From contig NZ_FOOX01000009.1 in the NCBI RefSeq assembly GCF_900113335.1, positions 124,001-188,000 of the forward strand: DNA of 64,000 nucleotides, written 5' to 3'. Below are positions 366 through 15,418 of the stretch, piece after piece (the first letter of the stretch is position 1; the number at the start of each line of letters is the position of its first letter). The stretch comes from Desulfotruncus arcticus DSM 17038. Lineage in GTDB: Bacteria; Bacillota; Desulfotomaculia; Desulfotomaculales; Desulfallaceae. Both the position numbers and the translations under genes were made by a program. A model generated the notes under the pieces. It saw only the letters and a list, made by a program, of their open reading frames with translations. It had not been told where the DNA came from and did not search any database.

Positions 366-1514
366 TTAGTGATATTCTTCGGTAACGGTTTTTCCCGCCT
401 CCTGCAGCACCCGGATTAAATCGCGGATAATATACCGTTTGTAAATATAAATGGTCGGCACTCCGGTGCCCTGTTGGCCGGGGTTGGTCGCCTGACCGAT
501 AATAAAGTGCACGCTGTCTGCTGCCGCTAACAAGGCAGCCAGCCGGCTGGCTCCGTCCCGGCCGCTGAAATCCTTGATCCCGGGCCTGCTTTTTAATAAA
601 TCCAGAGCATCTACCAGCGTTATGGCACCTTCGGTTACCAGATCAATACCCGGTATAATACCCACAGGAGGAACCCGTTCAGTACGCGAAGACAGGTCAA
701 CGCGCACATTTCTTCCCAAAACGCGTCCTACTATGTTGCCCGTGGTGCCGCCACATACCACTTTAACGCCTTCGCTGCGCATAAACCTGTCAACTACCAT
801 AATGTCTTCTTCCTTATTTTGGGGAGGCCCTATTAATACGGTAACCCGTTTGGGCCTACGTACCTTGATTACTGCTATACTGGCGTCATCACCGGGTTTT
901 CCGGCATAGATATTATTGCATAAGCAGGCAATCTCGCCGGCCCATTCCGCGGCTCCCTTTTGCATCGAAAACGTATCTGTTAAATAAGCTGTCATTCGTT
1001 CCCGGCCCAGCCCCATGTCCCATGTTTTACCGGCGCCGGCATACAGCACCCCGTCGCTGACAATAACCAACCAATTATCTGCATGGACATTAAAAAAGCT
1101 TTCCCGGATGACTTTTCCACCAATATTTCTTTTATTTGTCTCAAGCCCAATTATAGTATTATGCCGCCCGAAAAAGACAGCCGGATTTTCGTATTCTATT
1201 AAATAGGCACAGCCGTCCTGCTTTAATTGCAGAACGGTAAAGGTGCTGTAAGCCAGCTTGCGTACCCTGCAGATAGGCAGCGTTTGCCCCAGCGTTTCCA
1301 TAACATCTTCTATGCGCCCGCCCATTTTAAGCATGGTGCTGGCTGTTTTAGCCGTAAGGCGGGAAAGAATGTTGGCTTTAACACCACTGCCAAGGCCGTC
1401 GGCAACCACTATAATGTGGTCGGTACCGGTATGGACAACCTCTATGCTGTCGCCACACAATTCTTCACCATATTTAACCAGGCGGGCAGTTCCAATATCT
1501 ACGCAGATTTTCAC
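366..1514 (-). CDS. SpoIIE-type PP2C serine phosphatase of the hydrogenase operon
   Basis: The first ~215 of 382 residues form a PP2C/SpoIIE phosphatase fold. Metal-binding acidic motifs are visible: VVADGLGSG (Asp39), IVSDGV near residue 153 and PGDDAS near residue 208. The C-terminal ~160 residues contain a CGGTTGN segment and are of unknown function. The start is a GTG with AAAGGAGC upstream. The gene follows the sensory hydrogenase, with copy A of a structured repeat filling the gap. Phosphatases of this kind are known beside PAS-type [FeFe] hydrogenases. A two-part H2 signalling route (HydS senses, phosphatase relays) is inferred. The target phosphoprotein is not visible. Confidence 0.85.
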   Translation of the reverse strand: MKICVDIGTARLVKYGEELCGDSIEVVHTGTDHIIVVADGLGSGVKANILSRLTAKTASTMLKMGGRIEDVMETLGQTLPICRVRKLAYSTFTVLQLKQDGCAYLIEYENPAVFFGRHNTIIGLETNKRNIGGKVIRESFFNVHADNWLVIVSDGVLYAGAGKTWDMGLGRERMTAYLTDTFSMQKGAAEWAGEIACLCNNIYAGKPGDDASIAVIKVRRPKRVTVLIGPPQNKEEDIMVVDRFMRSEGVKVVCGGTTGNIVGRVLGRNVRVDLSSRTERVPPVGIIPGIDLVTEGAITLVDALDLLKSRPGIKDFSGRDGASRLAALLAAADSVHFIIGQATNPGQQGTGVPTIYIYKRYIIRDLIRVLQEAGKTVTEEYH

Positions 1515-1540
1515 GGGCGGGAATGCTCCTTTCGAACTTT

Positions 1541-1663
1541 ATCTCGTTAACCGCCGCTAAGACTCCCGCCTCTACAGGAGGGAGTTAAGCGGCGATAAAC
1601 TCGAAATAAGTGCGACTAAGGTTCAGGTGGGGTCAAAACCCCACCTGAACCAAGTCTTCTTTA
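1541..1663 (-). repeat. Structured leader element, copy A
   Basis: Read on the minus strand, it contains a long helix (GGTTCAGGTGGGG with its complement), the linker TTAGTCGCACTTATTTCGAG, and a second helix (CGCCGCT/AGCGGCG plus ACTCCC/GGGAGT). It ends about 26 bases before the GTG of the phosphatase gene, directly ahead of its ribosome site. It is nearly identical to copy B at 8166-8291 and related to copy C at 15163-15290. Its orientation is sense to the downstream gene. Whether it acts as RNA or is only a mobile palindromic unit is not decided by the sequence. Confidence 0.8.
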
Positions 1664-3391
1664 TAAAGGCTCCTGCCTCATTAATTCAATTAACTTGGTT
1701 AAAAGCACTTTTGTCTCAGCGGTGGTCTCGCCCAATAAACCGGCAATTTCCTGGGCTACCTGCATTTGTTTGGTTATTACTTCCTGGGCCCGGGCAATAG
1801 TTTGCGCTTTAACCAGTTCAAATTGCTCGCGGTGTTTTTTCTCTGCAGTAATGTCAACCAAAATGCCTACTATAATTTTTTCATTTTTTAACGGAAAGAT
1901 TACTTGACGAATAACCATATCCATTTGAGAATAAACTGTCACGTTATTGATCATTTTGCCTGTTTGCAGCACCTGTAAAAAGCTGTCGGGCTCTATAAAT
2001 TTATTTAGTTTTTGACCCACTATTTCTGCAGCTGTGCCGGTAAACATATGTTCACCGGCCGGGTTTACCTCCTTAATGACCAGGTCGTGATTGACTAAGA
2101 TAATGGCATTGGGCATGGCATTCATTACCAGGGCAGACATGGATTCCGCCCGTCGGCGCATGTAGGGGATGCACATCTGCACTTCAGCATTGCCCTGATA
2201 TACCGCCACGGCCTTATCCCGGCAGGAATCATAACCGCAAGCGCCGCAGTTGAGTTCATCTTCGGGGTGATATTTACCGGTCCGGGCTAATATCTGCCTG
2301 ATAGCTTGCTCATCCGGTAAGGGCAGGATTACTTTCCGGTTGATAAAATTTCTGACCATCAGTTCCGCAGGCAAATCTGCTTCGGTGGCGCCGTTATCCT
2401 TGTTCCCCTGAACGGCTGTCGCCCTGTAATAATTAATTACCTTTTGACGGCGGACAAAGATATCTTCATTCCGACCCAGCATCAGAGGACCGTCAATGCA
2501 GCCACCGCGGCAGGCCAGCAGTTCCATTAGCCCCGGGAGGACGGTTTTGTTGCGGGACAGATAGCTTAAAAATTCAATACAGTTTTGCAGACCGGTAATG
2601 GCGGTAAATTGCGCTTCGGTTTTTATGTTCCCGGCAATGGTTCGGGCCATCCCTCCCTCAATGGGAAACAAACGAGCCAGATCGGGCTGCGGACCGTCAA
2701 ATACTTCCGGTTTCAGCCCGTCCGGGTATAAACCTTCTTCCCGCACCCATTCCCAGAATTCATCGAAGCCCAGCGCAAAATCAATGGCGTCACGTATCCC
2801 GGGTGTTTGCGCCTCCTCCTTCTTGGCGGCGCAGGGGCCGATAAACACCGTAAGGTGATCCGGATATAATTGTTTCATATAGCGCCCGTGGGCAATCATT
2901 GGTGAAACCACCGGTGCCAGTAAAGGTATCAGCTCAGGGTAATGTTTCTCAATTAAATTCACCACCACCGGGCAGGCGCTGCTGATAAGCGGTTTATCCA
3001 AACCCAATCTGTGATGCTGAGCCGCTACCAGTTCCGCCCCCAGGGAAGTTTCCTGCACGTGTCTGAAGCCCATGCGGCGGAGTAAAGCCGGCATCTGCCC
3101 CGGTTCCGGCAGGGGCAGCCCCGCCACAAAGGAGGGAGCCACCCCTACAGCCATAGGAACCCCATGTTGTAAATGTAATTTAACTTGTTCCAGCTCAGAA
3201 ACGACTTTTTTAGCCTTCTGCGGGCATACCAGAACACACCGGGCATCCTGTACACAAAGCTCTGTAATCACCTGGGCATGCAGTGTGTCTGCATCGTCAC
3301 CGGTGCGGATGCGGATAGCCTTGACCGGACAGGCCCTGAGACAACGGTAACAATCCCGGCACCTGGCTTCATTGGTAATGATTAAATCCAT
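1661..3391 (-). CDS. hydS: Sensory [FeFe] hydrogenase with PAS domain (HydS-like)
   Basis: The 576-residue domain order is: two ferredoxin [4Fe-4S] motifs (CRDCYRCLRACP at 11-22 and a second ending VCP near 57); H-cluster domain; an extra CxxCx4C...C cluster (Cys382, 385, 390, 407); PAS at about 415-520; and a short charged tail. The H-cluster motifs are altered. The L1 motif is SSACP, with Ala139 where catalytic enzymes have the proton-transfer cysteine. L2 is GPCAAKKEE and L3 is ACRGGC. This pattern fits sensory (group C) hydrogenases rather than turnover enzymes. It lies 12 bases after hydA and before the phosphatase, so co-transcription is likely. H2 sensing with PAS output is inferred from family knowledge. 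Confidence 0.9.
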   Translation of the reverse strand: MDLIITNEARCRDCYRCLRACPVKAIRIRTGDDADTLHAQVITELCVQDARCVLVCPQKAKKVVSELEQVKLHLQHGVPMAVGVAPSFVAGLPLPEPGQMPALLRRMGFRHVQETSLGAELVAAQHHRLGLDKPLISSACPVVVNLIEKHYPELIPLLAPVVSPMIAHGRYMKQLYPDHLTVFIGPCAAKKEEAQTPGIRDAIDFALGFDEFWEWVREEGLYPDGLKPEVFDGPQPDLARLFPIEGGMARTIAGNIKTEAQFTAITGLQNCIEFLSYLSRNKTVLPGLMELLACRGGCIDGPLMLGRNEDIFVRRQKVINYYRATAVQGNKDNGATEADLPAELMVRNFINRKVILPLPDEQAIRQILARTGKYHPEDELNCGACGYDSCRDKAVAVYQGNAEVQMCIPYMRRRAESMSALVMNAMPNAIILVNHDLVIKEVNPAGEHMFTGTAAEIVGQKLNKFIEPDSFLQVLQTGKMINNVTVYSQMDMVIRQVIFPLKNEKIIVGILVDITAEKKHREQFELVKAQTIARAQEVITKQMQVAQEIAGLLGETTAETKVLLTKLIELMRQEPL

Positions 3392-3403
3392 ATATAAAGC
3401 CCC

Positions 3404-5422
3404 TTAAATCGGCACATTGGCATGAACGGCTATTCTGGTTTTAAAAACCTTGGCGGCGTTTTGCGGTGTTACACCGGTAATAATCTCATCGCCCACCTTG
3501 ACCGAGACTCCCTGGTCACAGTGCTCCAGGCAAAATGTGCCGTTAAGTTTGATATACTTCTCCAGGCCGCACTGCCTTACCAGATCAGTAAATTGGTTTA
3601 AAACGTCATAAGAACCCCGCAGGTAGCACCCGGTACCTATGCAAACTGCAACTTCCACCATATCTTCCCCTGATAAATCCGTTATTTGCATCGGCTTGCC
3701 GCTTATCCTGCGCCGGTGGACATAACTGGTGTGCAGATCATGGTGGGCGGTGCGAGTATCAAACCCTTTGAGCCATTCGTTAATTATTTTATTGACGTAC
3801 ACGTTATCCTGAGCCTTGTGCACCTGTTCAATAGCATCCAGCTGATAAATCGAATTCAACCTCTGTATTCTGGTTGAGGTGTTATTGATATCCGGCTGCC
3901 CGCCGCCGCCGATACAGCCACCCGGACAGGCCATAACTTCTACGATATGATACATTATTTCTCCCGTTTTTAGGCGCTGGATCAGTCTTTCAGCATTATT
4001 GATCCCGTTAACTACCGCTACCTTTAACTTCCGGTCATTCACGGCAACTTCCGCCTCTTTAAGTCCTTGGATACCGCGAGCCGGATAGAAATCAATTCGG
4101 CCCACTTCGTGGCCGCCGGTATAACCGGCTATATACCGGACCACTGATTCCATTACCCCGCCTGAGGCGCCAAAGATTAAAGCCCCTCCTGAGCCCATAC
4201 CAAGCGGGTTGTCAAAGCCGGCCGGCTCCAGTTCGTTAAATACAATACCGAATTCTTTAATCATTTGGGCCATTTCCACCGTGGTTAAAACAATATCCAC
4301 ATCATAGACGCCCTCAGTGGTAAATTCAGGTCTTTTAGCCTCAAATTTTTTGGCCGTGCAGGGCATTACAGAGATACATACTACTTCAGCAGGGGTTTTG
4401 CCAATTTTTTTCGCATAGTGTTTTTTAATCAGTGAGCCAAACATCTGCTGCGGCGACCGGCAGCTGGAAAGATGATCAATCATATCGGCGTGCGTCTGCT
4501 CACAGTATTTTACCCAACCGGGACAGCAGGAAGTGAATAGCGGAAGCCTGCCTTCGTTTTCCAGGCGGCTCAGAAATTCCATTGATTCTTCAATGGTAGT
4601 CAGGTCAGCAGTAAAAAGCGTGTCAAATACTTTATCAACGCCCATTTTCTTTAATGCGGCCACAATTTTACCGGTAACTGCCGAACCGGCCGCCAAGCCA
4701 AACTCTTCACCCAAAGCCACCCGTACTGCCGGAGCAATTTGCACCACCACTGTTTTCCCGGGATCATGAATGGCCGCCCAGGCTTGCTCTACTTCTGACT
4801 TTACCGTCAGGGCGCCGGTGGGGCAAACAGCCACACACTGGCCGCAGTTGATGCAGGCCACATCGGCCAAATCTTTACCGAAAGCGGTGGTTACCAGAGT
4901 CTTACTGCCCCGGTGGGCAAAATCCCAGATACCCAGCCCCTGTACTTCCTTGCATACGCGTACACAGTCACCGCACAGGATGCACTTATTGGGATCTTTA
5001 ACAATACTGCAGCTTGAATGATCAATTGGCAGTTTGATATCCCGCTTACCAAAACGTATCTCGTCAACCCCATATTGTTTAGCCAATTTTTGCAGTTTAC
5101 AGGTAGTGTTTTTAGAGCAGGTTGGGCACTCCCGGTCGTGATTGGCCAGCAGCAGCTCGAGAATCATCCGGCGCAGGCGCCGGGTGCGCTCAGTATTGGT
5201 GCGTATCACCATTCCGTCCGTGGGCGGGGTGGAGCAGGAAGCCACCAGACCTACGTTCTCAACTTCTACCAGGCACAGGCGGCACGCTCCGTACACGCTC
5301 AGTTCTGAATGGTAGCAAAATGTTGGCAGTTCAATGCCTATACGTCTGACAAGCTCCAAGATATTTTTGGCGTTGCCAATTGCTACTGACTGACCATCTA
5401 TTATAACCCGACTGGTTTGCAT
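3404..5422 (-). CDS. hydA: [FeFe] hydrogenase catalytic subunit HydA (trimeric, NAD-linked)
   Basis: This is the catalytic subunit of a HydABC complex, interconverting H+ and H2 with NADH and probably ferredoxin (electron bifurcation). From the N-terminus it has a plant-type [2Fe-2S] domain, a His-ligated cluster motif (NHDRECPTC...C), two [4Fe-4S] motifs, and intact H-cluster motifs TSCCPGW, MPCTAKKFE and ACPGGCIGGGGQP. A C-terminal thioredoxin-like [2Fe-2S] domain has Cys pairs CIGTGC and CLEHC. The chosen ATG at 5422 has GGGGTG upstream. A GTG at 5461 is in frame but has no ribosome site. That gives about 672 residues, normal for the bifurcating type. No signal peptide is seen, so it is cytoplasmic. 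Confidence 0.95.
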   Translation of the reverse strand: MQTSRVIIDGQSVAIGNAKNILELVRRIGIELPTFCYHSELSVYGACRLCLVEVENVGLVASCSTPPTDGMVIRTNTERTRRLRRMILELLLANHDRECPTCSKNTTCKLQKLAKQYGVDEIRFGKRDIKLPIDHSSCSIVKDPNKCILCGDCVRVCKEVQGLGIWDFAHRGSKTLVTTAFGKDLADVACINCGQCVAVCPTGALTVKSEVEQAWAAIHDPGKTVVVQIAPAVRVALGEEFGLAAGSAVTGKIVAALKKMGVDKVFDTLFTADLTTIEESMEFLSRLENEGRLPLFTSCCPGWVKYCEQTHADMIDHLSSCRSPQQMFGSLIKKHYAKKIGKTPAEVVCISVMPCTAKKFEAKRPEFTTEGVYDVDIVLTTVEMAQMIKEFGIVFNELEPAGFDNPLGMGSGGALIFGASGGVMESVVRYIAGYTGGHEVGRIDFYPARGIQGLKEAEVAVNDRKLKVAVVNGINNAERLIQRLKTGEIMYHIVEVMACPGGCIGGGGQPDINNTSTRIQRLNSIYQLDAIEQVHKAQDNVYVNKIINEWLKGFDTRTAHHDLHTSYVHRRRISGKPMQITDLSGEDMVEVAVCIGTGCYLRGSYDVLNQFTDLVRQCGLEKYIKLNGTFCLEHCDQGVSVKVGDEIITGVTPQNAAKVFKTRIAVHANVPI

Positions 5423-5464
5423 ATTTTCAACACCCCTTACTTGTTTAGTAATAAAATTCACAAT

Positions 5465-7345
5465 TTATGCCGTATAAATTGCGCTAAACTTGCATTTTTC
5501 CATACATGTGCCGCATTTTACACATTTGGAAGTGTCAATGACATGCGGCTCTTTTTTAGTCCCGGTTATAGCCTCGGCGGGACAGAGTTTGGCGCATAGC
5601 CCGCAGCCCGTGCATTTTTCCTGATCGATGAAGTAATTCTGCAGGGCCTTGCAGACCCCCGCGGGACATTTTTTATCCCGCACATGAGCCTCATACTCGT
5701 GCCTGAAATACTTCAGCGTGGTTAACACCGGGTTGGGTGCGGTTTTGCCCAGGCCGCACAGCGAGCCGTCCTGAACCGTCAGCGCCAGTTCCTCCAGCAA
5801 TGCCAGATCTGTCTCATCGGCCAACCCCCGGGTAATTTTGGTTAAAAGCTCCAGCATGCGCTTGGTGCCTTCCCGGCAGGGGACGCACTTGCCGCAGGAT
5901 TCATTTTGTACAAAATTCATAAAGAACTTGGCAACTTCGACCATACAGGTGTCCTGCCCCATGACCACCAGTCCACCGGAGCCAATCATAGCCCCTGCTT
6001 TTTTCAGCGCGTCGTAATCCAGAGGTAAATCAAGGTGCTCTTCGGTAAGACAGCCGCCCGACGGGCCGCCAATTTGGACAGCCTTGAATTGCTTTCCGTC
6101 CCTAAGCCCGCCGCCAATATCAAAAACCAATTCCCGCAGGCTCATGCCCATTGGTATTTCCACCAGACCTGTATGCGATACCTGGCCGGCCAGGGCAAAT
6201 GTTTTAGTGCCCGGACTTGTTGCGGTGCCGTACCGGCGGAACAACTTCCCACCCTTGAGTAAAATAAACGGCAGGTTGGCCAGTGTTTCAACGTTATTGA
6301 TAATTGTAGGGCAGCCCCATAAACCTTTGTTGGCCGGAAACGGCGGCCGTGGTTTGGGCATACCCCGTTCACCTTCAATAGAGGCTATCAGTGCCGTCTC
6401 CTCGCCGCATACGAAGGCGCCGGCACCCTCTTTGATATTGATTTTAAAGCAAAAATCCGTACCTAAAATGCTTTGACCTAAAAGGCCCAGCAGTTGAGCC
6501 TCTGCAACAGCGCGTTTTAAACGTTGGACTGCCAGCGGATATTCCGCCCGTACATAAACATAACCTTCGTCGGCACCGATGGCGTAACCGGCAATCATCA
6601 TTCCTTCCAACACCCGGTGCGGGTCACCTTCCATTACGCTGCGGTCCATAAAAGCACCGGGGTCACCTTCATCCCCGTTGCAAATGATATATTTTTTGTC
6701 TCCTTGCGCAGCCCGGGCAAACTGCCACTTCTTCCCGGTGGGGAACCCCCCGCCGCCGCGGCCGCGTAATCCTGATTCCTGGACCTCGGTAATTACTTCT
6801 TCGGGTGTCATTTCAAATATTGCCCTGGCTAGAGCTTGATAACCGTCATGCGCCAGGCAATCATTAATATCATCGGGGTTAATGCGCCCGCAGTGCTCCA
6901 GGGCTATACGCGTTTGTTTCTGGTAAAAGGGAATTTCGTCCTGGGTTTTAACCGCCATGCCACTTGCCGGATGATGATATAACAACCTTTCAACCAGTTG
7001 ATTGCCAACAATATGTTTTTCAACTATTTCAGCAACATCATTGATTTTGACATGATGGTAAAAAACTCCCTCAGGCTCAATCCGCACCAGCGGGCCCATT
7101 TCACAAAAGCCATGACAACCGCTGATGTTAAGCGCGTAAGGCTCAGGCCACAGTTCTTCTGCAAGTTCGATTTTTACCGGTAATCCCTGTTCCTTGAGTT
7201 TTTGCCGCAGTGCCTCATAAACTTGTAAGGAGCCGTTAGCCACGCATCCGGTGCCGGCACAAACCAAAATACGCATTTTTTCTTGGCGCAGCTTACCTTT
7301 TAATTCAGTCTGGCAATCTATTAAATCAACTCTTGATTTGAGCAT
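5465..7345 (-). CDS. hydB: Hydrogenase subunit HydB (NuoF-like, FMN/NAD site)
   Basis: The 626-residue protein begins with a thioredoxin-like [2Fe-2S] domain (CAGTGC and GCHGFCEMGP). A NuoF-type FMN/NADH core follows, with the glycine-rich GRGGGGFPTGKKW motif. Next comes the NuoF [4Fe-4S] motif SCGKCVPCREG with a distal Cys. Two ferredoxin motifs close it (CTGCGLCAKLCP and CVKCGTCMEKC). It carries electrons between NAD(H), ferredoxin and HydA. The start ATG has TAAGGAGG upstream. It lies 19 bases after hydC, in the usual C-B-A order. Confidence 0.95.
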   Translation of the reverse strand: MLKSRVDLIDCQTELKGKLRQEKMRILVCAGTGCVANGSLQVYEALRQKLKEQGLPVKIELAEELWPEPYALNISGCHGFCEMGPLVRIEPEGVFYHHVKINDVAEIVEKHIVGNQLVERLLYHHPASGMAVKTQDEIPFYQKQTRIALEHCGRINPDDINDCLAHDGYQALARAIFEMTPEEVITEVQESGLRGRGGGGFPTGKKWQFARAAQGDKKYIICNGDEGDPGAFMDRSVMEGDPHRVLEGMMIAGYAIGADEGYVYVRAEYPLAVQRLKRAVAEAQLLGLLGQSILGTDFCFKINIKEGAGAFVCGEETALIASIEGERGMPKPRPPFPANKGLWGCPTIINNVETLANLPFILLKGGKLFRRYGTATSPGTKTFALAGQVSHTGLVEIPMGMSLRELVFDIGGGLRDGKQFKAVQIGGPSGGCLTEEHLDLPLDYDALKKAGAMIGSGGLVVMGQDTCMVEVAKFFMNFVQNESCGKCVPCREGTKRMLELLTKITRGLADETDLALLEELALTVQDGSLCGLGKTAPNPVLTTLKYFRHEYEAHVRDKKCPAGVCKALQNYFIDQEKCTGCGLCAKLCPAEAITGTKKEPHVIDTSKCVKCGTCMEKCKFSAIYTA

Positions 7346-7364
7346 ACAAAAACCTCCTTACTGC

Positions 7365-7862
7365 TTAATTTTGAGAACCTTTGTCATCATCAGTTACCTG
7401 CAGCTTTTTAAGTACCTCTATGACGCCTTGCGGAGTCATTTGGCCAAACACTTCTTTGTTGTTAACGGTTACCACGGGAGCCAGGCCGCAGGCGCCCAAG
7501 CAGGATACCGTTTCTACTGTAAACTGCAGGTCATCGGTGGTTTGTTTGTTATCCGGCAATTTTAGTTCGCGGCGCAGTGAAAAATTTATCGGTTCCGAAC
7601 CGCGCACATGGCAGGCGGTGCCATCACATACCCGGATAACATATTTACCTTTGGCAACCAGGGAAAACTGGGCATAAAATGTCGCCACACCATATACTGT
7701 AGCCGGCGATAAGCCCATGGCTGTAGCCACGTATGTCAGAACTTCTTCCGGCAGGTAACGGTATTCTTCCTGAACCTCCTGTAGGATGGCAATTAGATGT
7801 GATACCTTACTTTCATGCCTGTCAATAATTTCTTGAAGTTTTTGAAACTTCCGCCGCTGCAT
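7365..7862 (-). CDS. hydC: Hydrogenase subunit HydC (NuoE-like [2Fe-2S])
   Basis: The 165 residues are typical of the NuoE/24-kDa family. A thioredoxin-like fold carries the [2Fe-2S] ligands CDGTAC and CLGAC. It is the electron-transfer subunit of HydABC and the first gene of the operon. The ATG at 7862 has a GGGGG-containing site upstream. The promoter and a Rex-like operator lie about 100 bases upstream. Confidence 0.95.
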   Translation of the reverse strand: MQRRKFQKLQEIIDRHESKVSHLIAILQEVQEEYRYLPEEVLTYVATAMGLSPATVYGVATFYAQFSLVAKGKYVIRVCDGTACHVRGSEPINFSLRRELKLPDNKQTTDDLQFTVETVSCLGACGLAPVVTVNNKEVFGQMTPQGVIEVLKKLQVTDDDKGSQN

Positions 7863-7950
7863 ACTACCAAACCCCCTTTTTTGGATTTGTGATTTAAAGA
7901 ACTTGTCAAGATGTGGTGCTTTTTTCCGCTTCTCCTATTGCAATATAAAT

Positions 7951-7968
7951 TTGTGTTCTTTTTCACAA
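7951..7968. promoter_or_regulatory. Rex-like operator of the hydrogenase operon
   Basis: TTGTGTTCTTTTTCACAA matches the known Rex consensus TTGTGAANNNNTTCACAA except at the two A positions of the left arm. It overlaps the -10 box and the expected start site of the hydC promoter. That is where an NADH-sensitive repressor would act on a NADH-oxidising hydrogenase. The match is seen directly; the regulator assignment is inference. No rex gene is in the window. Confidence 0.7.
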
Positions 7969-7993
7969 TATATTTGATAGTAACATTTGTCAA
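7965..7993 (-). promoter_or_regulatory. Sigma-A promoter of the hyd operon
   Basis: On the minus strand TTGACA (7988-7993) is followed by a 17-base spacer and TATTGT (7965-7970), a near-consensus housekeeping promoter. Transcription would start near 7958, giving a leader of roughly 95 bases before hydC. The Rex-like site overlaps the -10 box. Confidence 0.75.
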
Positions 7994-8165
7994 TAACTAT
8001 TTGAAGATTTAACAATTATACTTTATCATCTGATAAAGGAATTTTATTAATATGACGGGATAAAAATAGACCAACCTTATTAAAGGCTGATCTGGCACCA
8101 AAGGATATTTTTTAAAGGGATTTTGGTTTGAAAACAGAAGTATTTTTATTTATAATTTTAATGTC

Positions 8166-8291
8166 TAATAAAGAAGACTTGGTTCAGGTGGGGGGGGGAC
8201 CCCACCTGAACCTTAGTCGCACTTATTTCGAGTTTATCGCGGCTTAACTCCCGCCTGTAGAGGCGGGAGTCTTAGCGGCGGTTAACGAGAT
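8166..8291 (+). repeat. Structured leader element, copy B
   Basis: Plus-strand copy of the element at 1541-1663. Helix 1 pairs GGTTCAGGTGGGG with CCCCACCTGAACC, extended by GACT/AGTC across a small internal loop. The linker TTAGTCGCACTTATTTCGAG is identical to copy A. Helix 2 has CTCCCGCC/GGCGGGAG. The terminal CGAGAT can pair with ATTTCG in the linker, closing helix 2 as an outer stem. The element ends 18 bases before the pspC start codon, just ahead of its ribosome site. Confidence 0.8.
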
Positions 8292-8309
8292 CAAGAAAGG
8301 AATTACTAT

Positions 8310-8510
8310 ATGGCCAAACAAATTAAGCGGTTACACCGCTCATCAACGAACAGCATGATCGCTGGTGTATGTGGCGGCTTAGCCGAATACCTTGGGATCG
8401 ATCCCGTGATTGTGCGCTTGGGCTATGTCATACTATCCATTGCATCAGTTGCCTTTCCGGGTATTCTGGTATATCTGGTGGCCTGGTTGGTGATACCGCG
8501 CGATTTTTAA
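8310..8510 (+). CDS. PspC-domain small membrane protein
   Basis: 66 residues, almost all a PspC domain. A basic N-terminus and the conserved GVCGGLAEYLGIDP segment precede a hydrophobic stretch of about 24 residues and a WLVIPRDF end. Family members are small inner-membrane proteins linked to envelope stress, but stand-alone short forms are common in Firmicutes and poorly defined. AGAAAGGA lies ahead of the ATG. Copy B of the structured repeat forms its leader. No other psp gene is nearby. Confidence 0.85.
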   Translation: MAKQIKRLHRSSTNSMIAGVCGGLAEYLGIDPVIVRLGYVILSIASVAFPGILVYLVAWLVIPRDF

Positions 8511-8822
8511 ACCGGCTCCAGGTGGCGGTGATTGTGCATAACCGCACAATTTAATTTTCTTTTAAAGGTAAATTATCATTTGACCAGTCCAAATTTAAAA
8601 TCTAATGAAAAAAAACTTAATAATTTAAAAATTTTAACCATTAATATATTAACTTATTTGAATAATTTTAAAAGATTTTTTTTTATCTTTTTGGTTTACT
8701 ATCATTCATTAAGCACGTATAATCATATTAAGCCAAGTATATCAAGTAAAAACAAGTAAGCTTAGGTAAAATTTTTGTCATCAATTGTTTATTAAAAAGG
8801 TGGCGTTAGTGAGGTGATGATA
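8511..8822 (+). other. AT-rich gap before acyl-CoA synthetase gene
   Basis: About 310 bases, very AT-rich with runs of A and T. I see no convincing gene or terminator. The only readable signal is the promoter listed at 8695-8723. Confidence 0.5.
8695..8723 (+). promoter_or_regulatory. Probable sigma-A promoter for the ADP-forming synthetase operon
   Basis: TTTACT (8695-8700), a 17-base spacer and a perfect TATAAT (8718-8723). The -35 box is weak (4 of 6). Start near 8730 would give a ~93-base leader. Confidence 0.55.
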
Positions 8823-10922
8823 GTGAATAAACTCACAAACATGGTCAGGCCGGGAACAGTTGCTGTGGTTGGAGCTTCATCAAAGCAGGGTAAAATAGGG
8901 CACACAGTTTTAAATAATATTATTAGCTGCGGATACAAAGGTAAAATATATCCCATCAATCCTAAGGAAACCGAAATTGAAGGGATACAAGCTTATCAAT
9001 CAGTTGCTGATCTGCCTGAACCGATTGACCTGGCGGTAATAGCGGTGCCGGCGTCATTGGTACCGGGAGTGGTGGAAGATTGCGGCCGTATTGGGGTAAA
9101 ATATCTGGTAATAATAACTGCCGGATTTAAGGAGATAGGGGCAGAAGGGCTTGAAATGGAGAAAAAAATCATTGAAACCTGCCGGGAACACGGTATGCGC
9201 CTTTTGGGTCCCAATGTGGTTGGTTTTATTGATACCCATACTCCAATTAATGCTTCATTTGCAGCTACCTTCCCCCAGAAAGGAGAAATAGCTTTTCTTT
9301 CGCAAAGTGGTGCCATGCTTGTAGCCATTTTGGATTGGAGTTTATCAAGTGGACTTGGCTTCAGTAAAGTGGTCAGTCTTGGCAATAAGGCTGATTTGTC
9401 GGAAATAGATTTTATTGAAGATGCTGCGGACGATCCTAACACCAAGGTAATATTATGTTACATTGAAGATATCGTGGACGGACCAAGGTTCTTGGATGTT
9501 GCATCCCGGGCAGCCTGCAAGAAACCGGTTATTGTTATTAAATCCGGCACCAGCCAGGCCGGGGCCCAGGCGGCCTCTTCCCATACAGGGGCGCTGGCGG
9601 GCAGCGATTTGGCGTATGATGTAGCTTTTAGACAATGCGGTGTGATCAGGGCCCGTTCCATGACGGAGTTATTCAACCTGGCTGTGGCCTTTGCCAGGTC
9701 ACCCGTACCAGCCGGCAAAAAAGTGGCGATAATTACTAATTCTGGTGGCCCCGGGATTATTGCTACCGATAACGTTGAAAATTATGGGCTGCAAATGGCC
9801 CGGTTTACCAAGGACACTATTGACGCGTTGAGGGGCACTCTTCCGGTAGAAGCCAATGTATATAACCCGGTGGATGTGTTGGGTGACGCGAAGGCAGATC
9901 GCTACAGGTTTGCACTGCAAAAAGTATGCGCAGACCCTAATGTGGATAGTGTAGTGGTATTAATGTGTCCTACAGGTGTTACCCAGCCTGTTGAAACTAG
10001 CCAAGCTATTTTGGAAGCAAAAAAAGCATACCCGGAAAAACCAATTTTGGCTGCCTACATGGGTGGTGAAACTCTTGCCCGGGGCTCGGCAATGCTGGCA
10101 GAGGGAGGTGTGCCGTGCTTCACTTTTCCGGAACCTGCTATTTCCTGTATTAGCGGGCTGGTAAGATATAATGAGATGCTGCAAAAGCAAGAGGAAGCAG
10201 CTGCTCAAATGAGCCGTATTGATCAAAAAGGAGCCAAAGCAGTATTCTATGATGTGATAAAAGATAACCGATTGGTGCTGCTGGGCAGCGAGGCGGCGGA
10301 AGTGGCCAACTGTTACGGTATTCCGGTAGCCCCGACGGTGCTGGCAACTACACCGGAAGAGGCGGCCCTGGAAGCTGATAAGATGGGCTATCCTGTGGTG
10401 ATGAAAGTGGCCTCTCCAAAAATTTTACACAAAACAGATGTGGGTGGTGTTATCGTCGGGTTGAAAAATTCCGATGAAGTACGCCGGGCATATTTGGAGA
10501 TAATGGATAATGTGTATGGGTATATGCCGCAGGCCGTTGTTTATGGTGTAGAAGTGCAAAAGATGATGCCAAAGGGTACCGAGTTAATTATCGGCATGAC
10601 TAAAGACATTCAATTTGGCCCGCTGGTCGGTTTTGGTCTTGGTGGAATTTATGTTAATCTATTAAAAGATGTTAGTTTCAGGCTTGCCCGGGGGCTTACT
10701 TCCGGCGAGGTAGAAAAAATGCTGCAGGAAACCAAGGCATACACATTGTTACGGGGGTATCGCGGTGAAAAGCCGCGTGATATAGCTGCCCTGACGGATG
10801 TTATATTACGGGTGGCCGCGCTGGTCAATGATTTCCCGGAAATAACCGAGATGGACATCAACCCGGTGTTTGCGTATGAAGAAGGGCTTTCTGCCCTGGA
10901 TATTAAAATCACAATATCGTGA
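8823..10922 (+). CDS. ADP-forming acetate/acyl-CoA ligase, fused alpha-beta
   Basis: About 700 residues. An N-terminal CoA-binding Rossmann domain (VAVVGASSKQGKIG) and succinyl-CoA-synthetase-like alpha domains carry the SHTGALAGSD motif, whose His is the phosphorylated residue. After ~470 residues comes an ATP-grasp beta part (YPVVMKVASPKILHKTDVGG). The enzyme converts acyl-CoA + ADP + Pi to acid + CoA + ATP; substrate range cannot be read. GTG at 8823 is preferred because GAGGTG lies 7 bases before it; GTG 8814 and ATG 8817 are in-frame alternatives. The next gene follows after 10 bases. It could conserve energy from acetyl-CoA made by the acetoin pathway. Confidence 0.9.
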   Translation: MNKLTNMVRPGTVAVVGASSKQGKIGHTVLNNIISCGYKGKIYPINPKETEIEGIQAYQSVADLPEPIDLAVIAVPASLVPGVVEDCGRIGVKYLVIITAGFKEIGAEGLEMEKKIIETCREHGMRLLGPNVVGFIDTHTPINASFAATFPQKGEIAFLSQSGAMLVAILDWSLSSGLGFSKVVSLGNKADLSEIDFIEDAADDPNTKVILCYIEDIVDGPRFLDVASRAACKKPVIVIKSGTSQAGAQAASSHTGALAGSDLAYDVAFRQCGVIRARSMTELFNLAVAFARSPVPAGKKVAIITNSGGPGIIATDNVENYGLQMARFTKDTIDALRGTLPVEANVYNPVDVLGDAKADRYRFALQKVCADPNVDSVVVLMCPTGVTQPVETSQAILEAKKAYPEKPILAAYMGGETLARGSAMLAEGGVPCFTFPEPAISCISGLVRYNEMLQKQEEAAAQMSRIDQKGAKAVFYDVIKDNRLVLLGSEAAEVANCYGIPVAPTVLATTPEEAALEADKMGYPVVMKVASPKILHKTDVGGVIVGLKNSDEVRRAYLEIMDNVYGYMPQAVVYGVEVQKMMPKGTELIIGMTKDIQFGPLVGFGLGGIYVNLLKDVSFRLARGLTSGEVEKMLQETKAYTLLRGYRGEKPRDIAALTDVILRVAALVNDFPEITEMDINPVFAYEEGLSALDIKITIS

Positions 10923-10932
10923 GGTGATTAGT

Positions 10933-11991
10933 TTGAAAAACCTCTTTATAATGGGTAACCCTGATTGCGGTAAAACGGCGGTGATTATCGGTCTGGCGCT
11001 GAAGTTAAAAGAAGCTGGTTATAAGGTGGGATATTTCAAACCTGTTGACAATGGCAGAAAAACTGCTACCGGTAAGGTTCCGGGCGGCGATGCCGTGCTG
11101 ATGAAGGATGTTCTGGGCATTGAAGCTCTGCTGGGGTTGATTAATCCTACGAGAACCGGGCCTTCCTACCTGGGTGTTTATGAGCAGGATTACAGCCTGC
11201 AGCAAATTAAATCAGCCTTTAATGAAATTTCCGGTGATTATGATGTAATGCTTGTTGAGGGTGCTATCTTTCCCTATGCACTATCCTCGGTTGGGATGGA
11301 TTCGGTTTCCCTGGCCAGGGAATTTGATTCCAGGGTAATGAATGTAGTAAAAGTGGAAAATGATTTTAGCCTGGACCTGGCAATTATGTATAACAATTAT
11401 GTGGGATGCCGGCAGGCCCAAACCGCAGGCACTATTTTCGCCAACGTGCCAAGAGCGCTGCTGGCCAAGGTGGAGGGCTTATTCCGGCCGGCTCTTGCCG
11501 ATGCCGGCTATAAGACGCTGGGTGTTATACCGAACCGCTCTGAATTATCATCACCTACGGTAATGGAATATCAGGAGACGCTTGGCGGGGAACTGCTGGT
11601 GGGGCACGAAAACATGGACCGGCTGGTTGAAGATGTGGTCGTTGGCGCCATGACTATGGATAGTGCCTTGACCTATCTGCGCAGGGCTGCCAACAAAGCG
11701 GTAATTTTGGGTGGTGACAGGGCGGATCTGGCTTTGGCTGCCCTGGAGACCCATACATCCGTACTGGTTCTTACCGGCGGACTGTACCCGGACGTAAAAG
11801 TTCTGGCAAGGGCGGGAGAAAAAGGTGTGCCGGTGATCCTGACTTATCAGGATACTTATACCGTTATTGAAATGTTGAGTCAGGTGCACAGGCATATAAA
11901 ACCAAACGACAAGAGCGGGATAGCCATTGCCCGGGAAAACTTTGAACAATATTGTGATTTTAACACAATTCTTGAAATCTTAGGCTTGTAA
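10933..11991 (+). CDS. BioD-like/DRTGG protein (phosphotransacetylase N-terminal family)
   Basis: 352 residues from a TTG with GAGGTGAT upstream. A P-loop near the N-terminus (GNPDCGKTAV) belongs to the dethiobiotin-synthetase-like fold. A DRTGG-like domain lies in the second half (GGDRADLALAALETH is visible). The same pair of domains forms the regulatory N-terminus of long phosphotransacetylases; the catalytic PTA domain is absent. It is tightly coupled to the ADP-forming synthetase, so a regulatory or accessory role in acyl-CoA/acetate metabolism is inferred. Confidence 0.8.
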   Translation: MKNLFIMGNPDCGKTAVIIGLALKLKEAGYKVGYFKPVDNGRKTATGKVPGGDAVLMKDVLGIEALLGLINPTRTGPSYLGVYEQDYSLQQIKSAFNEISGDYDVMLVEGAIFPYALSSVGMDSVSLAREFDSRVMNVVKVENDFSLDLAIMYNNYVGCRQAQTAGTIFANVPRALLAKVEGLFRPALADAGYKTLGVIPNRSELSSPTVMEYQETLGGELLVGHENMDRLVEDVVVGAMTMDSALTYLRRAANKAVILGGDRADLALAALETHTSVLVLTGGLYPDVKVLARAGEKGVPVILTYQDTYTVIEMLSQVHRHIKPNDKSGIAIARENFEQYCDFNTILEILGL

Positions 11992-11998
11992 AGCTTTT

Positions 11999-12024
11999 AG
12001 CCCCGTAAAGGGGCTTTTTATTTT
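11999..12024 (+). terminator. Rho-independent terminator
   Basis: AGCCCC/GGGGCT stem with a 5-base loop followed by TTTTTATTTT, just after the DRTGG gene. Confidence 0.85.
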
Positions 12025-12040
12025 ACTTTAGGAAATTATA

Positions 12041-12096
12041 CTGGCCATATTTATGGCCAGAACTAAGGATTAAAGTACTGAAAAGCGCGCGCTTTT
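12041..12096. repeat. Two perfect palindromes between convergent genes
   Basis: CTGGCCATATTTATGGCCAG (12041-12060) is a perfect inverted repeat. AAAAGCGCGCGCTTTT (12081-12096) is a perfect 16-base palindrome. The second may act as a terminator for either strand. Confidence 0.5.
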
Positions 12097-12148
12097 CTTG
12101 TGAATCAGCGCGTTTTTCCGGCACTTGTGGTAAAATGTTTTTAGCAGC

Positions 12149-12388
12149 TTAAAAGATTTGATTGATATAATCGTTCACGCTTTGGGCTATCTTATTTTTC
12201 ACCTGCTCCCTGGTTCCCTGGGGAATGTTTTCATTAATCGGGAGGTCATTGTGTTCGGCCAGGCGGTGATACTGAACTATTCCGTCACCGATCAATCTGC
12301 CTTCATCTGTTACTCGGTAATGCACAATATAACTCGGGTCAATTGAATTATCCTTGTCAACCCTGACGGCTATGTGATATGCACTCAT
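12149..12388 (-). CDS. Hypothetical protein, 79 residues
   Basis: A good GGAGG site precedes the ATG. The sequence is soluble and mixed-charge, with an acidic/polar N-terminal half (AVRVDKDNSIDPSYIVHYRV) and a C-terminal helix ending VNDYINQIF. There is no membrane segment, cysteine motif or domain I can name. It stands alone between convergent neighbours. Confidence 0.6.
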   Translation of the reverse strand: MSAYHIAVRVDKDNSIDPSYIVHYRVTDEGRLIGDGIVQYHRLAEHNDLPINENIPQGTREQVKNKIAQSVNDYINQIF

Positions 12389-12429
12389 GCTTGTCCTCCG
12401 TTTTTGGTACTATTATTACCTTTAGGGGG

Positions 12430-12560
12430 GCGGCCTAAACTAACTATAATAACGGTTGCAGCATGGGGTCGGACCCCGGTTGCCACCTTGGCGGAAAGGG
12501 GACGGCGCCCCTTTCGGGGAATGTCCCCAGCTTATGCGGGCGGACAGGGTCGTCCGCCCC
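12430..12560. repeat. Cluster of GC-rich palindromic units
   Basis: Between the 79-residue gene and the HAD gene lie several short GC-rich inverted repeats: GGGGTCGGACCCC, GGGGACGGCGCCCC and, at 12538-12559, GGGCGGAC-AGGGTC-GTCCGCCC. The last recurs with one change inside the pseudouridine synthase gene at 16106-16128. A half copy is at about 48688-48700. The region is much more GC-rich than its flanks and resembles REP-type elements. Confidence 0.65.
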
Positions 12561-12611
12561 TCGGCCTTATGCTAAATAGTTAGGTGATTATGTGATAAAG
12601 AGGGTGTTAAT

Positions 12612-13355
12612 TTGCCTTTGCTCCAGGCTGGTAAAAGAGAATTTGACTGTGGTGCCGTCTTACTTGATAAAGACGGCACATTGCTTGATTTTAAGGTAAT
12701 GTGGCTGGAATGGTCCAGGTATGTTATTAATGAGCTGTTGGCTGGGATAGGACAGGTAAATATCATCTCAAATACGTTGGAAATGGCTATGGGGGTAGAT
12801 TTAACCGGTTGGCAGGTAGATGCGGAAGGCCCTCTGGCGGGAGGGACCCTGACCGGTTTGCGGGCCGCTCTGGAGGAAACACTGGTGGGTGCGGGTATGA
12901 AGTCCGAAGCGGCAGCGGCCCTTGTTGCCGAAGCTATGCGGCGTTCTGAAACTGAAATGGACTGGGGAAATTTGGCCAGGCCGGTTCCGGGGTTGGAGGA
13001 AAAATTGTTCAGCTTGAAGCAAAAGAACTTCAAGCTGGCGGTTGTTACCGCTGATTTGGCCGAGAGATCTAAAATTACGCTGCAAACACTGAAGCTTGAC
13101 CATTATTTTGATGCCGTTATCGGAGCCGACCTGGTGAAAAACACCAAGCCTTCTCCCGATATGGCTCTTTTGGCTTGCGGCAGGCTGGGGGTGGCACCGG
13201 GAAATGCTGTGGTTATCGGTGATTCCCCCAGAGATATATTAATGGCCCAAAATGCCGGCTCCGGCAGTATCGGAGTGCTTTCCGGCGTTTCTACCAGGGG
13301 CCAGCTGGCCGGTGCCGACGCAGTAATACCATCTGTGGCCGATTTACAAACTTGA
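12612..13355 (+). CDS. HAD-superfamily hydrolase (phosphoglycolate phosphatase-like)
   Basis: 247 residues from a TTG start with GAGGGTG upstream. HAD motif I is DKDGTLLDF near residue 20. A helical cap follows, then motif II-like VVTADLAERS, a Lys in KNTKPSPD, and motif IV GDSPRDI near residue 203. These features place it with phosphatases of the Gph/PpaX type. The natural substrate is not readable. Confidence 0.85.
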   Translation: MPLLQAGKREFDCGAVLLDKDGTLLDFKVMWLEWSRYVINELLAGIGQVNIISNTLEMAMGVDLTGWQVDAEGPLAGGTLTGLRAALEETLVGAGMKSEAAAALVAEAMRRSETEMDWGNLARPVPGLEEKLFSLKQKNFKLAVVTADLAERSKITLQTLKLDHYFDAVIGADLVKNTKPSPDMALLACGRLGVAPGNAVVIGDSPRDILMAQNAGSGSIGVLSGVSTRGQLAGADAVIPSVADLQT

Positions 13356-13366
13356 TGTGCCGGTCC

Positions 13367-14701
13367 TTATGATAATGTTTGTTCACCTGTGAGATGATCT
13401 ATAAACTGGCGTGCCGACCTTGGTGAGCGCCCGTTATGCCAATTGGCCCAATGAAGTGCACGACGGCGGAGGTCCTGAGGGTCCAGCCCCAGGTTTCTTT
13501 GCCGTGCCAGCCCCTGGACGATTTCCAAAAAGAGTTCCTGGTCCGGGCTGGGGAAAATAATAGTAATGCCAAAACGGTCGGCCAGCGACAGTTTTTCCTG
13601 TACGGAATCCATGGCGTGAATTTCCTGGCTGGACGAGTTTGCCTCCCGGTCTGCAAAGGTCTCGCGGATCAGATGCCGCCGGTTTGAGGTGGCGTAAATC
13701 AGTACATTTTCCGGTTTTTTCTCCAGCCCTCCTTCCAACAGCGCCTTGAGGTCCTTGTAGCCGGTTTCGTTTTCCTCAAAGGACAGGTCGTCCACAAACA
13801 AAATGAACCGGTGCTTGCGGCCGGTTAATTCCCTGATGATGGCCGAAAAATCCGCCAGTTGTTTTTTGCCCACCTCAATAAGCCGCAGGCTACGCTGCCA
13901 ATACTCGTTAAGCAGGGCCTTGATGGTAGATGATTTACCGGTTCCACGGTCACCGTACAACAGCATATTGTTAGCCGGGGCGCCGTTCAAGAATTTTAAA
14001 GTGTTGTCGATTATTTCAGCGCGGGTGTCGGCGTAACCAATCAAATCAGCAAAAGTTATCGGGTCCGGGCGGTCGACACCCCGTAATGAGTGGTTTTCCC
14101 ATTTAAAGGCTATTTGTCTGCCGAAAACGCCGCAGCCGAAATTGGCATAGTGCTCCGCCAAACTTTCTGCGTATTTGTCCCAGCCTGGGGCGGACGCCAG
14201 AGCATGCTTAACCGCCAGCCGTTCTTTTAGGACAGGTGTGGTGTTATGCGCAGTGGGCGTTAATGCTGCCCACTTGGGTAAAACCGCTAGGCTGCGGGGA
14301 AATTCCGGCAAGTTCTGTAAATAGTTCTCGGTTGCTTTAAGGACGGTGGCTAATCCGGTTTCAAAGGCCAGATGTAATAGCTCAAGATCCCGTCGCACCG
14401 CTTCCAGGTAAACTTTGTAATCCAGTTCCCGGTTATAAGCTGCTTCACTGAAGGGGTTGACATCATCCAACAGCAGGTCAAGCAGATGGTTTTGCCAGGG
14501 ATCGGCCGCCTCCATAGGGTTTACTGTCTGCGCCAGCAGATAGTAAAGCTTGCTGTAAGTAACAGCCGGGTTAAGCGATTCGGATGGTTCTACCAGTGCT
14601 TTCAGGTGATCCAGGTAGCTATCCAGGATGGGGTCTGAGAGTACGGAACGGTAGATAGCCAGACTGTCAATGGCGTTAATTATTGTTTTAAAGTTATCCA
14701 T
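13367..14701 (-). CDS. DUF815-family AAA ATPase
   Basis: About 444 residues. The N-terminal 200 are helical and of unknown role. The C-terminal half is an AAA+ ATPase with Walker A GDRGTGKSS, Walker B ILFVDDLSFE, and a sensor-1-like YATSNRRHL. The ATG at 14701 follows AGAGG; an in-frame TTG at 14704 is less likely. The family (DUF815) is widespread, with a DnaA/DnaC-like ATPase fold, but has no firm function. It is transcribed alone, convergent with the HAD gene. Confidence 0.85.
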   Translation of the reverse strand: MDNFKTIINAIDSLAIYRSVLSDPILDSYLDHLKALVEPSESLNPAVTYSKLYYLLAQTVNPMEAADPWQNHLLDLLLDDVNPFSEAAYNRELDYKVYLEAVRRDLELLHLAFETGLATVLKATENYLQNLPEFPRSLAVLPKWAALTPTAHNTTPVLKERLAVKHALASAPGWDKYAESLAEHYANFGCGVFGRQIAFKWENHSLRGVDRPDPITFADLIGYADTRAEIIDNTLKFLNGAPANNMLLYGDRGTGKSSTIKALLNEYWQRSLRLIEVGKKQLADFSAIIRELTGRKHRFILFVDDLSFEENETGYKDLKALLEGGLEKKPENVLIYATSNRRHLIRETFADREANSSSQEIHAMDSVQEKLSLADRFGITIIFPSPDQELFLEIVQGLARQRNLGLDPQDLRRRALHWANWHNGRSPRSARQFIDHLTGEQTLS

Positions 14702-14758
14702 CAATTAAGACCTCTTTTATGACGTTTTTTACTCCGCACCGCGGATTAAATAAGTAGT

Positions 14759-15151
14759 TCAGAGTGTTCCTCTTTTATCCCTCCAGTATTTGATATATTT
14801 TTCGTAAAGAATTCCCCCCGGGCTCCATTCCATTTTGGTTTGTTTTTCGGTTTTATACACTTCTGTCCAGAGACCAAGTTTTTCTTGTATTGCCAGCCGG
14901 GGTTGCTCTTCCTGGGGAATAAGGGTATAAACGCATAACACAGAATTTTTGATATAAGGGCATGGATCGCACTTGTTATATTTGTTGGCAAATTTAGCCA
15001 TATTTAAAATTCCCTGATTGGCCAACTCATCAAGCTGCGGTGCAATCTCCCTGAAGAAATCTGCGCTCCCTTCATAAATCCATTTGCCTGTTACTTTGTT
15101 ATTAATTTCCGGTGCAAAAATATAAGTCCAAACATTACCAACCTGAATCAT
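14759..15151 (-). CDS. Hypothetical protein with CxxC-like cysteines
   Basis: About 130 residues. The ATG at 15151 has AGGGGG upstream. A longer reading would run into repeat copy C and is not believed. A small cluster of cysteines (CDPCPYIKNSVLCVY) around residues 68-82 could bind metal. The C-terminal half is Trp/Lys/Tyr-rich. I do not recognise a family. It is divergent from the pseudouridine synthase gene, with copy C between them. Confidence 0.6.
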   Translation of the reverse strand: MIQVGNVWTYIFAPEINNKVTGKWIYEGSADFFREIAPQLDELANQGILNMAKFANKYNKCDPCPYIKNSVLCVYTLIPQEEQPRLAIQEKLGLWTEVYKTEKQTKMEWSPGGILYEKYIKYWRDKRGTL

Positions 15152-15162
15152 TGTTATCCCCC

Positions 15163-15290
15163 TAATAAAGAAGACTTGGTTCAGGTGGGGTTTTTGACCC
15201 CATCTGAACCTTAGTCGCACTTATTTCGAGCTTACAGCCTGTTAATCCCCGACCTAAGAGGGCGGGGTTTTACAGGCTGTGCGAAGATAA
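15163..15290 (+). repeat. Structured leader element, copy C (diverged helix 2)
   Basis: The first half (TAATAAAGAAGACTTGG..., helix 1 and the linker TTAGTCGCACTTATTTCGAG) matches copies A and B. Helix 2 has different bases but still pairs: ACAGCCTG with CAGGCTGT, and CCCCG with CGGGG. The closing stem TTATTTCG pairs with CGAAGATAA, with one bulged G. Replacement of a whole helix with pairing kept is evidence that the fold matters. It is sense to the pseudouridine synthase gene, about 165 bases upstream. Confidence 0.75.
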
Positions 15291-15307
15291 CCTCGCCCAG
15301 CATATTA

Positions 15308-15418
15308 AGTATTCAGAATTCAGGAGTCAGAATATTTTTGGGTACAATTCAAGGGTTTAAAAACCCATAAAGGAATGCAAAAAATTCCTACTGAATTCTG
15401 ACTACTGACTTCTAATTA
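15308..15418. repeat. Small inverted-repeat element (TCAGAATTCAG type)
   Basis: TCAGAATTCAGGAGTCAGAAT near 15313-15333 is mirrored by CTGAATTCTGACTACTGAC near 15393-15411, with about 60 bases between. Related sequence recurs at the 3' end of the next gene (16374-16397) and near 26425-26460. It looks like a short non-coding mobile or recombinogenic repeat. Confidence 0.55.

Follow-up and report, generated by a model that had tools for sequence, protein, structure and literature searches.

A high-copy, gene-less two-hairpin repeat of Desulfotruncus arcticus is a mobile DNA element that probably moved as a single strand

Transposons of the IS200/IS605 family insert 3' of a specific tetra- or pentanucleotide (PMC7290912) and are described as making no target duplication, using a short target, bearing hairpins at their ends and having an end of their own that resembles the target (PMC7290912, PMC6006769). 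Guide tetranucleotides located 5' to the hairpin feet interact with the target and with the right end (PMC6006769). REP, BIME and REPIN sequences with RAYT are portrayed as intergenic and palindromic and as reaching more than 100 copies per genome (PMC3116915, PMC2817692, PMC6006769), and REPs as having a tetranucleotide, GT[AG]G, at the foot of the hairpin and as neighbours of the RAYT gene (PMC6006769). The repeat described here shares copy number, intergenic placement and palindromic form with the latter group, but it has no GT[AG]G foot (by eye in an alignment, GACTT precedes the first hairpin, h1, and TTTAT or CTTAC the second, h2; GTAG is confined to the h2 loop of one subfamily, type A), and its two hairpins differ from one another, whereas a REPIN is an inverted pair of one unit. 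With palindrome-associated elements (PATEs), non-autonomous derivatives of IS200/IS605, it has in common two gene-less end hairpins, no duplication and a target of 4-5 bases resembling the other end. It is set apart from PATEs by its target, TTNA, by a linker able to pair with both ends, and by the absence, from the loci scanned, of a parental TnpA/TnpB element that bears these ends.

The repeat was noticed in a window of 64,000 nucleotides, the whole stretch of DNA analysed, where an initial annotation had described three copies of a structured leader-like RNA. All three are real, at 1541-1664 (-), 8168-8291 (+) and 15165-15288 (+), no more than two bases from the positions first given, and the common h1 and exact 20-nt linker are indeed found in each of the three ~122-bp copies. 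The linker, TTAGTCGCACTTATTTCGAG, occurs three times in the window, without a mismatch in any, against 0.01 expected with three mismatches allowed (100 shuffles). The names originally given to the adjoining genes agree with Pfam. The features are as follows, the ends of copy A having been set from the empty sites of other copies.

366-1514, minus strand: SpoIIE/PP2C-type phosphatase (Pfam)
1538-1541, minus strand: presumed target-derived TAAA after copy A, from sequence and family consensus
1542-1663, minus strand: element copy A (type A), TAAAG...GAGA, with an Fe-hydrogenase/PAS gene on one side and the SpoIIE-type phosphatase gene on the other
1600-1619, minus strand: conserved linker of copy A, a candidate guide predicted to pair with either element end
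8169-8290, plus strand: element copy B (type A), 19 bases ahead of the pspC start codon
8213-8232, plus strand: conserved linker of copy B, exact linker match
8291-8294, plus strand: presumed target-derived TCAA after copy B (CAAG in the sister genome G001)
8310-8510, plus strand: PspC (Pfam)
15166-15287, plus strand: element copy C (type B), flanked by divergent ORFs and with an exact empty site in G001
15211-15230, plus strand: conserved linker of copy C, exact linker match
15288-15291, plus strand: target-derived TAAC following copy C, also seen in the G001 empty site
15455-16399, plus strand: pseudouridine synthase (Pfam)

Copies A and B do lie just ahead of a start codon, as had been claimed, at distances of 27 and 19 bases and not the 26 and 18 first reported. 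Copy C stands upstream of the left divergent 130-aa ORF, 14 bases from its in-frame ATG (complement of 15149-15151); for this ORF a search with a longer 153-aa reading gave no Pfam match; the pseudouridine synthase gene is 167 bases away, and the copy is far nearer to the ORF that it faces away from.

The repeat is abundant in its own 5.2-Mb genome (G000), where the linker has 124 matches with at most three mismatches (none for the reversed control) and the 5' end has 140 (control 3). A covariance model of h1 and linker gave 125 matches there from 150 candidates scored, nine of them opposite-strand readings of palindromes already counted; such a search had been proposed at the outset. Among 118 copies from this genome, 72 of type A and 22 of type B have a plain h1 and h2; 16 carry a module of ~70 bases (GGGGACATTCCT...GTGTCCCC) at a hairpin tip, some of them at both; six have a shortened h2, one of these bearing the tip module as well; and three have no recognised 3' end, including L121, a type B copy with a small deletion. 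The two types have h1, the linker and some of the bases of the h2 internal loop in common, and differ in the arms of h2. This bears out what had been said of copy C, whose h2 is built from different arms and still pairs, its inner-loop bases being partly those of the other type. The ~70-base module is also seen at h1 and/or h2 tips across several genomes and subfamilies (L035, L046, L298, L299, L305), and is either a second repeat that has inserted there or an apical domain that can be exchanged.

Beyond this genome the distribution is patchy. The linker is present in 13 of 200 genomes, the host included, with 1 to 13 matches in each of the other twelve, although the match in G044 (L039) has no surrounding hairpin sequence and is probably due to chance; an exact gapped pattern was found in four of 398 genomes of the phylum, again counting the host. 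With E values up to 0.01 the covariance model has matches in 18 of 22 genomes, which were our own choice, partly for having the linker or the gapped pattern. The highest counts (54 in G221, 29 in G191, 28 in G042, 21 in G013 and 13 in G196) take in some weak matches and some counted twice, once on each strand, and at this threshold G002, G003, G005 and G010 gave none. In G221, G191 and G443 the sequences AAAGAARACTT and TTAGTYGCACTTAT flanking h1, or near variants of them, are kept and the arms differ. The exact linker was absent from the viral contigs searched, copy A had no match in the plasmids searched, and the repeat was not recognised in any description within the open-access literature searched. 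No autonomous copy, with its hairpins enclosing a gene, occurs among the 5' ends without a linker partner in the 100 of 140 matches listed; these ends belong to complete, tip-inserted, truncated or internally deleted elements, and one element close to a contig end (L155) stops after the tip module.

The ends of the element are fixed. On the left ATAAAG is conserved at 96-100% per position (90 copies), and on the right the sequence reads GAGAT-N-A(98%)-A(86%), with N free (97 copies); TNAA directly follows 100 of 115 copies. Empty sites in the same-genus relative G001, a comparison covering part of that genome (~0.4 Mb of loci), were recovered for seven copies, namely L089 (first copy), L110, L112, L126, L127, L131 and copy C of the window; the second copy of L089, L128 and L129 were left out because their pairs of flanks had longer unaligned stretches. 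In one example the filled site CCCCCTA[ATAAAG...GCGAAG]ATAACCTCG corresponds to the empty site CCCCCTAATAACCTCG, and near some joints the sister carries small changes. L126 and L127 carry a G just before TAAAG, matching the sister, and an A on the right side; because the sister's G is retained to the left of TAAAG, the joint is placed at (A/G)^TNAA, and all seven sites show clean insertion there with no target duplication. Copy B is missing from the orthologous pspC site of G001, although the exact joint is blurred, and no empty site was found for copy A in the partial G001 comparison. A search with joined flanks produced a single 80% match, whose joint was ambiguous and which was not taken as evidence. 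The flanks of 87 copies are uncorrelated and no duplication adjoins the element: across lengths of 2 to 12 and 1,320 length/offset combinations there was no consistent signal, the best (z = 4.3) being a two-base match at an offset away from the joint. The initial annotation had allowed for a mobile palindrome selected for its fold, and of this the mobility is upheld by the 124-140 matches, the precise empty sites, the fixed ends and the short target.

The insertions also show a modest bias of strand. Of 118 copies, 73 have flanks richer in G on the TTNA strand, 44 on the strand listed above and one equally on both (binomial P = 0.007, Wilcoxon P = 0.0006), a modest bias among copies that are not independent where they lie close together and one that is tied to gene orientation. 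The majority falls where insertion into the lagging-strand template would be expected to place it, if G-richness marks the leading sequence here. Judged by coding strand alone the bias is borderline (48 versus 70, P = 0.053; 32 of 82 clear cases, P = 0.06), and in G013, a single-contig genome, the few copies have mixed orientations and no clear arm bias by eye.

Collectively, the repeat is a mobile DNA element with defined ends, target and placement, a non-autonomous unit of ~122 bp with two hairpins that was amplified to well over 100 copies, probably by single-strand movement in trans. The single-strand reading, of the IS200/IS605 kind, rests on the fixed ends, the lack of a duplication, the two end hairpins, the likeness of TTNA to TTTA and the modest strand bias. 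Point by point, target-site duplication is absent, insertion is 3' of a tetranucleotide (TTNA on the opposite strand, from the 100 of 115 copies and the seven empty sites), and subterminal hairpins are present at both ends. The most likely placing of the repeat is as a new family of a known kind, the high-copy gene-less two-hairpin mobile repeat with single-strand transposition in trans.

The best-surviving alternative is a double-strand, site-specific route, in which a serine or tyrosine recombinase or an RNA-guided enzyme of the IS110 type would act on a 2-bp AT core at both joints. At most empty sites a single AT does stand in place of the two that bound the element in the filled site, with no longer duplication, as such a core would leave. 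We nonetheless consider it unlikely, since no duplicated core is present in L126 and L127, where the left side reads GT and the right side AT, and since the insertions are modestly biased by strand. Conserved hairpins at both ends are, moreover, not a known feature of such systems.

On the favoured single-strand reading, a Y1 (HUH) transposase supplied in trans would recognise the h1 and h2 hairpins on single-stranded DNA. The moving strand would be the opposite one, reading TTNA^TCTCG-h2'-linker'-h1'-AAGTCTTCTTTA^ for type A, with insertion 3' of TTNA and TTTA as the element's own end; any effects on adjoining genes would be incidental or later acquired. The linker may act as a guide by pairing with the cleavage sites. 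By eye, its segment TTATTTCG can pair with the type A 3' end CGAGATAA and with its type B counterpart CGAA(G)ATAA, CTTAT with the 5' end ATAAAG, and TTAT with the ATAA of both ends; linker and 3' end also differ together across families (TTATCC/GGATAA in L249, GCCA/TGGT in G221). The pairing between linker and target is imperfect, in that N need not match and the last A (86%) is opposite C, and the linker is on these sequence grounds a candidate guide. A broader and distinctly more doubtful proposal is that the repeat belongs to a superfamily of minimal single-strand transposons found in several families of the phylum, in which a central linker guide would pair alternately with the 5' end and the target-bearing 3' end such that a single strand programs both cleavages. 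Its enzyme would be one not yet tied to such repeats, each host would amplify subfamilies with arms of their own, and hairpin tips would be swapped as modules.

Of the 108 Y1 matches (19 genomes), 55 loci were scanned with the model, including all those of the host genome, and none held a convincing Y1 transposase with the ends of the element. A real match near tnpA in L183 was rejected, because that genome itself has 29 element matches and this one is on the wrong side of tnpA; a match at noise level beside the Y1 locus of L273 (E 0.8) was rejected too. TnpB loci were likewise considered as parents, and none was convincing. G443, in a check of four genomes, has a Y1 fragment only, despite its element matches. 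The RAYT-like gene of the host genome (L084) has its own, different palindromes, and no element lies within 1.5 kb on either side of it. The IS605 elements of these genomes (L081, L182, L184) resemble the repeat in having a left-end hairpin with a lower stem, an internal loop and a CTCCCGCC..GGCGGGAG-like tip, and the tip of the type A h2 is identical over 22 nt to that of the left-end hairpin of one of them (L184 1352-1373, G005). They differ in the sequence of the lower stem, in the right end (..GGCTTCAC) and in other end parts, and they have two genes, one tnpA-like and one tnpB-like, whereas the repeat is gene-less. The left end of the IS605 copies was examined to read their target, and no clear target was read. 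With the family described, the search for the missing transposase has a concrete target.

A related idea is that the repeat is the relic of an RNA-guided nuclease unit of the TnpB or IscB type, the structured stretch being a guide-RNA scaffold that reads into the flank. The target geometry is that of IS200/IS605, a structured RNA could be drawn from either strand, and the host genome has five TnpB-type matches, but none of those five loci shows these ends in the stretch examined, and no Rfam family is matched at gathering score; we regard this origin as very unlikely.

Slimmer still are the chances of the reading with which the initial annotation began, a riboswitch-like cis-regulatory leader RNA that has spread to many operons. 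Some copies do stop just ahead of the ribosome site, and the three in the window point toward their right-hand genes, as had been noted, but this does not extend to the family, in which the right-hand gene is in the sense orientation for only 57 of 117 copies (genes being defined by our own ORF rule, not by annotation), and therefore the orientation argument for a leader falls. The element is intergenic, with one of 118 copies inside an ORF of at least 100 aa. On the strand listed above, the neighbours of these 118 are both antisense in 50 cases, divergent in 30, both sense in 26, convergent in ten and unknown on one side in two; a count of 87 copies gave, in the same order, 37, 24, 18 and 7, with one unknown. 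Furthermore, the genes adjoining the three window copies belong to unrelated Pfam families, the orthologous sites recovered in G001 are empty, that of pspC included, and the Rfam search that had been suggested (Rfam 15) returned no window match reaching the gathering score. The best sub-threshold hit around copy B, to RT-19 RNA (8179-8274, minus strand; 22.4 bits, E 0.014, gathering 78.3), is probably a chance one.

Folding and covariation at first sight favour a leader RNA. Of the two copies folded, A (z = -9.1) and C (z = -9.0) are strongly structured as RNA relative to shuffles, and the other strand of copy A is at z = -9.5 as single-stranded DNA; copy A thus folds equally well in both forms, and therefore the fold does not tell RNA from DNA. 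Pairing is preserved across subfamilies. In an alignment of 28 copies, picked by us for diversity and not at random from 160 distinct ones (118 from the host, 42 from elsewhere), 91.9% of cells are paired against a shuffled mean of 85.4, and 20 of 39 pairs have changed on both sides against 7.3 (reached in none of 500 shuffles); sliding the partners by 1 to 3 columns leaves 33-55% paired. The covariation claimed for copy C is therefore real between subfamilies, but it fails as proof of selection on an RNA, because in several copies (also in L088, L151 and L158) one arm has been rewritten as the exact complement of the other. Such rewriting is quasi-palindrome correction, which yields apparent covariation without selection; perfect palindromes make up 26 of the 73 type A h2 hairpins that have neither module nor shortening. 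Changes in h1 (117 copies, all genomes) are mostly uncompensated, with 6 Watson-Crick, 46 G-T, 19 A-C and 22 other outcomes. As 32 of the 46 G-T changes are one frequent, presumably inherited variant, 14 are left beside 19 A-C once it is removed, which gives no signal of a selected strand and counts against an RNA. Covariation among a few copies is often read as a riboswitch signature; in this case it is the signature of a mobile element with maintained palindromes that are partly rewritten arm from arm, and leaders in these genomes can be recent insertions. With its fixed ends, empty sites, several subfamilies and more than 100 copies, the family is a clean natural data set, suited to the study of how hairpins change in elements that are recognised by structure.

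An ordinary MITE with terminal inverted repeats and a DDE transposase would likewise be short, high-copy, gene-less and intergenic, but it can be set aside, as there is no target duplication and, on our reading of the sequence, neither end is an inverted repeat of the other.

Other repeats were seen alongside the element. Next to copy C, window positions 15306-15417 hold a further palindromic repeat (TTCAGGAGTCAGAAT...ATTCTGACTACTGACTTC), of which the sister G001 has several partial copies, none at the corresponding site; two more interspersed repeats, at 12010-12093 and 12488-12565, each match several scattered places in G001. In four loci of G221 (L207, L209, L211, L213) a short h1-type motif is nested in the hairpin tip of a longer one. 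Finally, G013 contains near-identical copies of another two-hairpin family (TTCTTAATTCAGGGGGAG...; L306, L307, L308), of similar architecture and with a different linker and ends.
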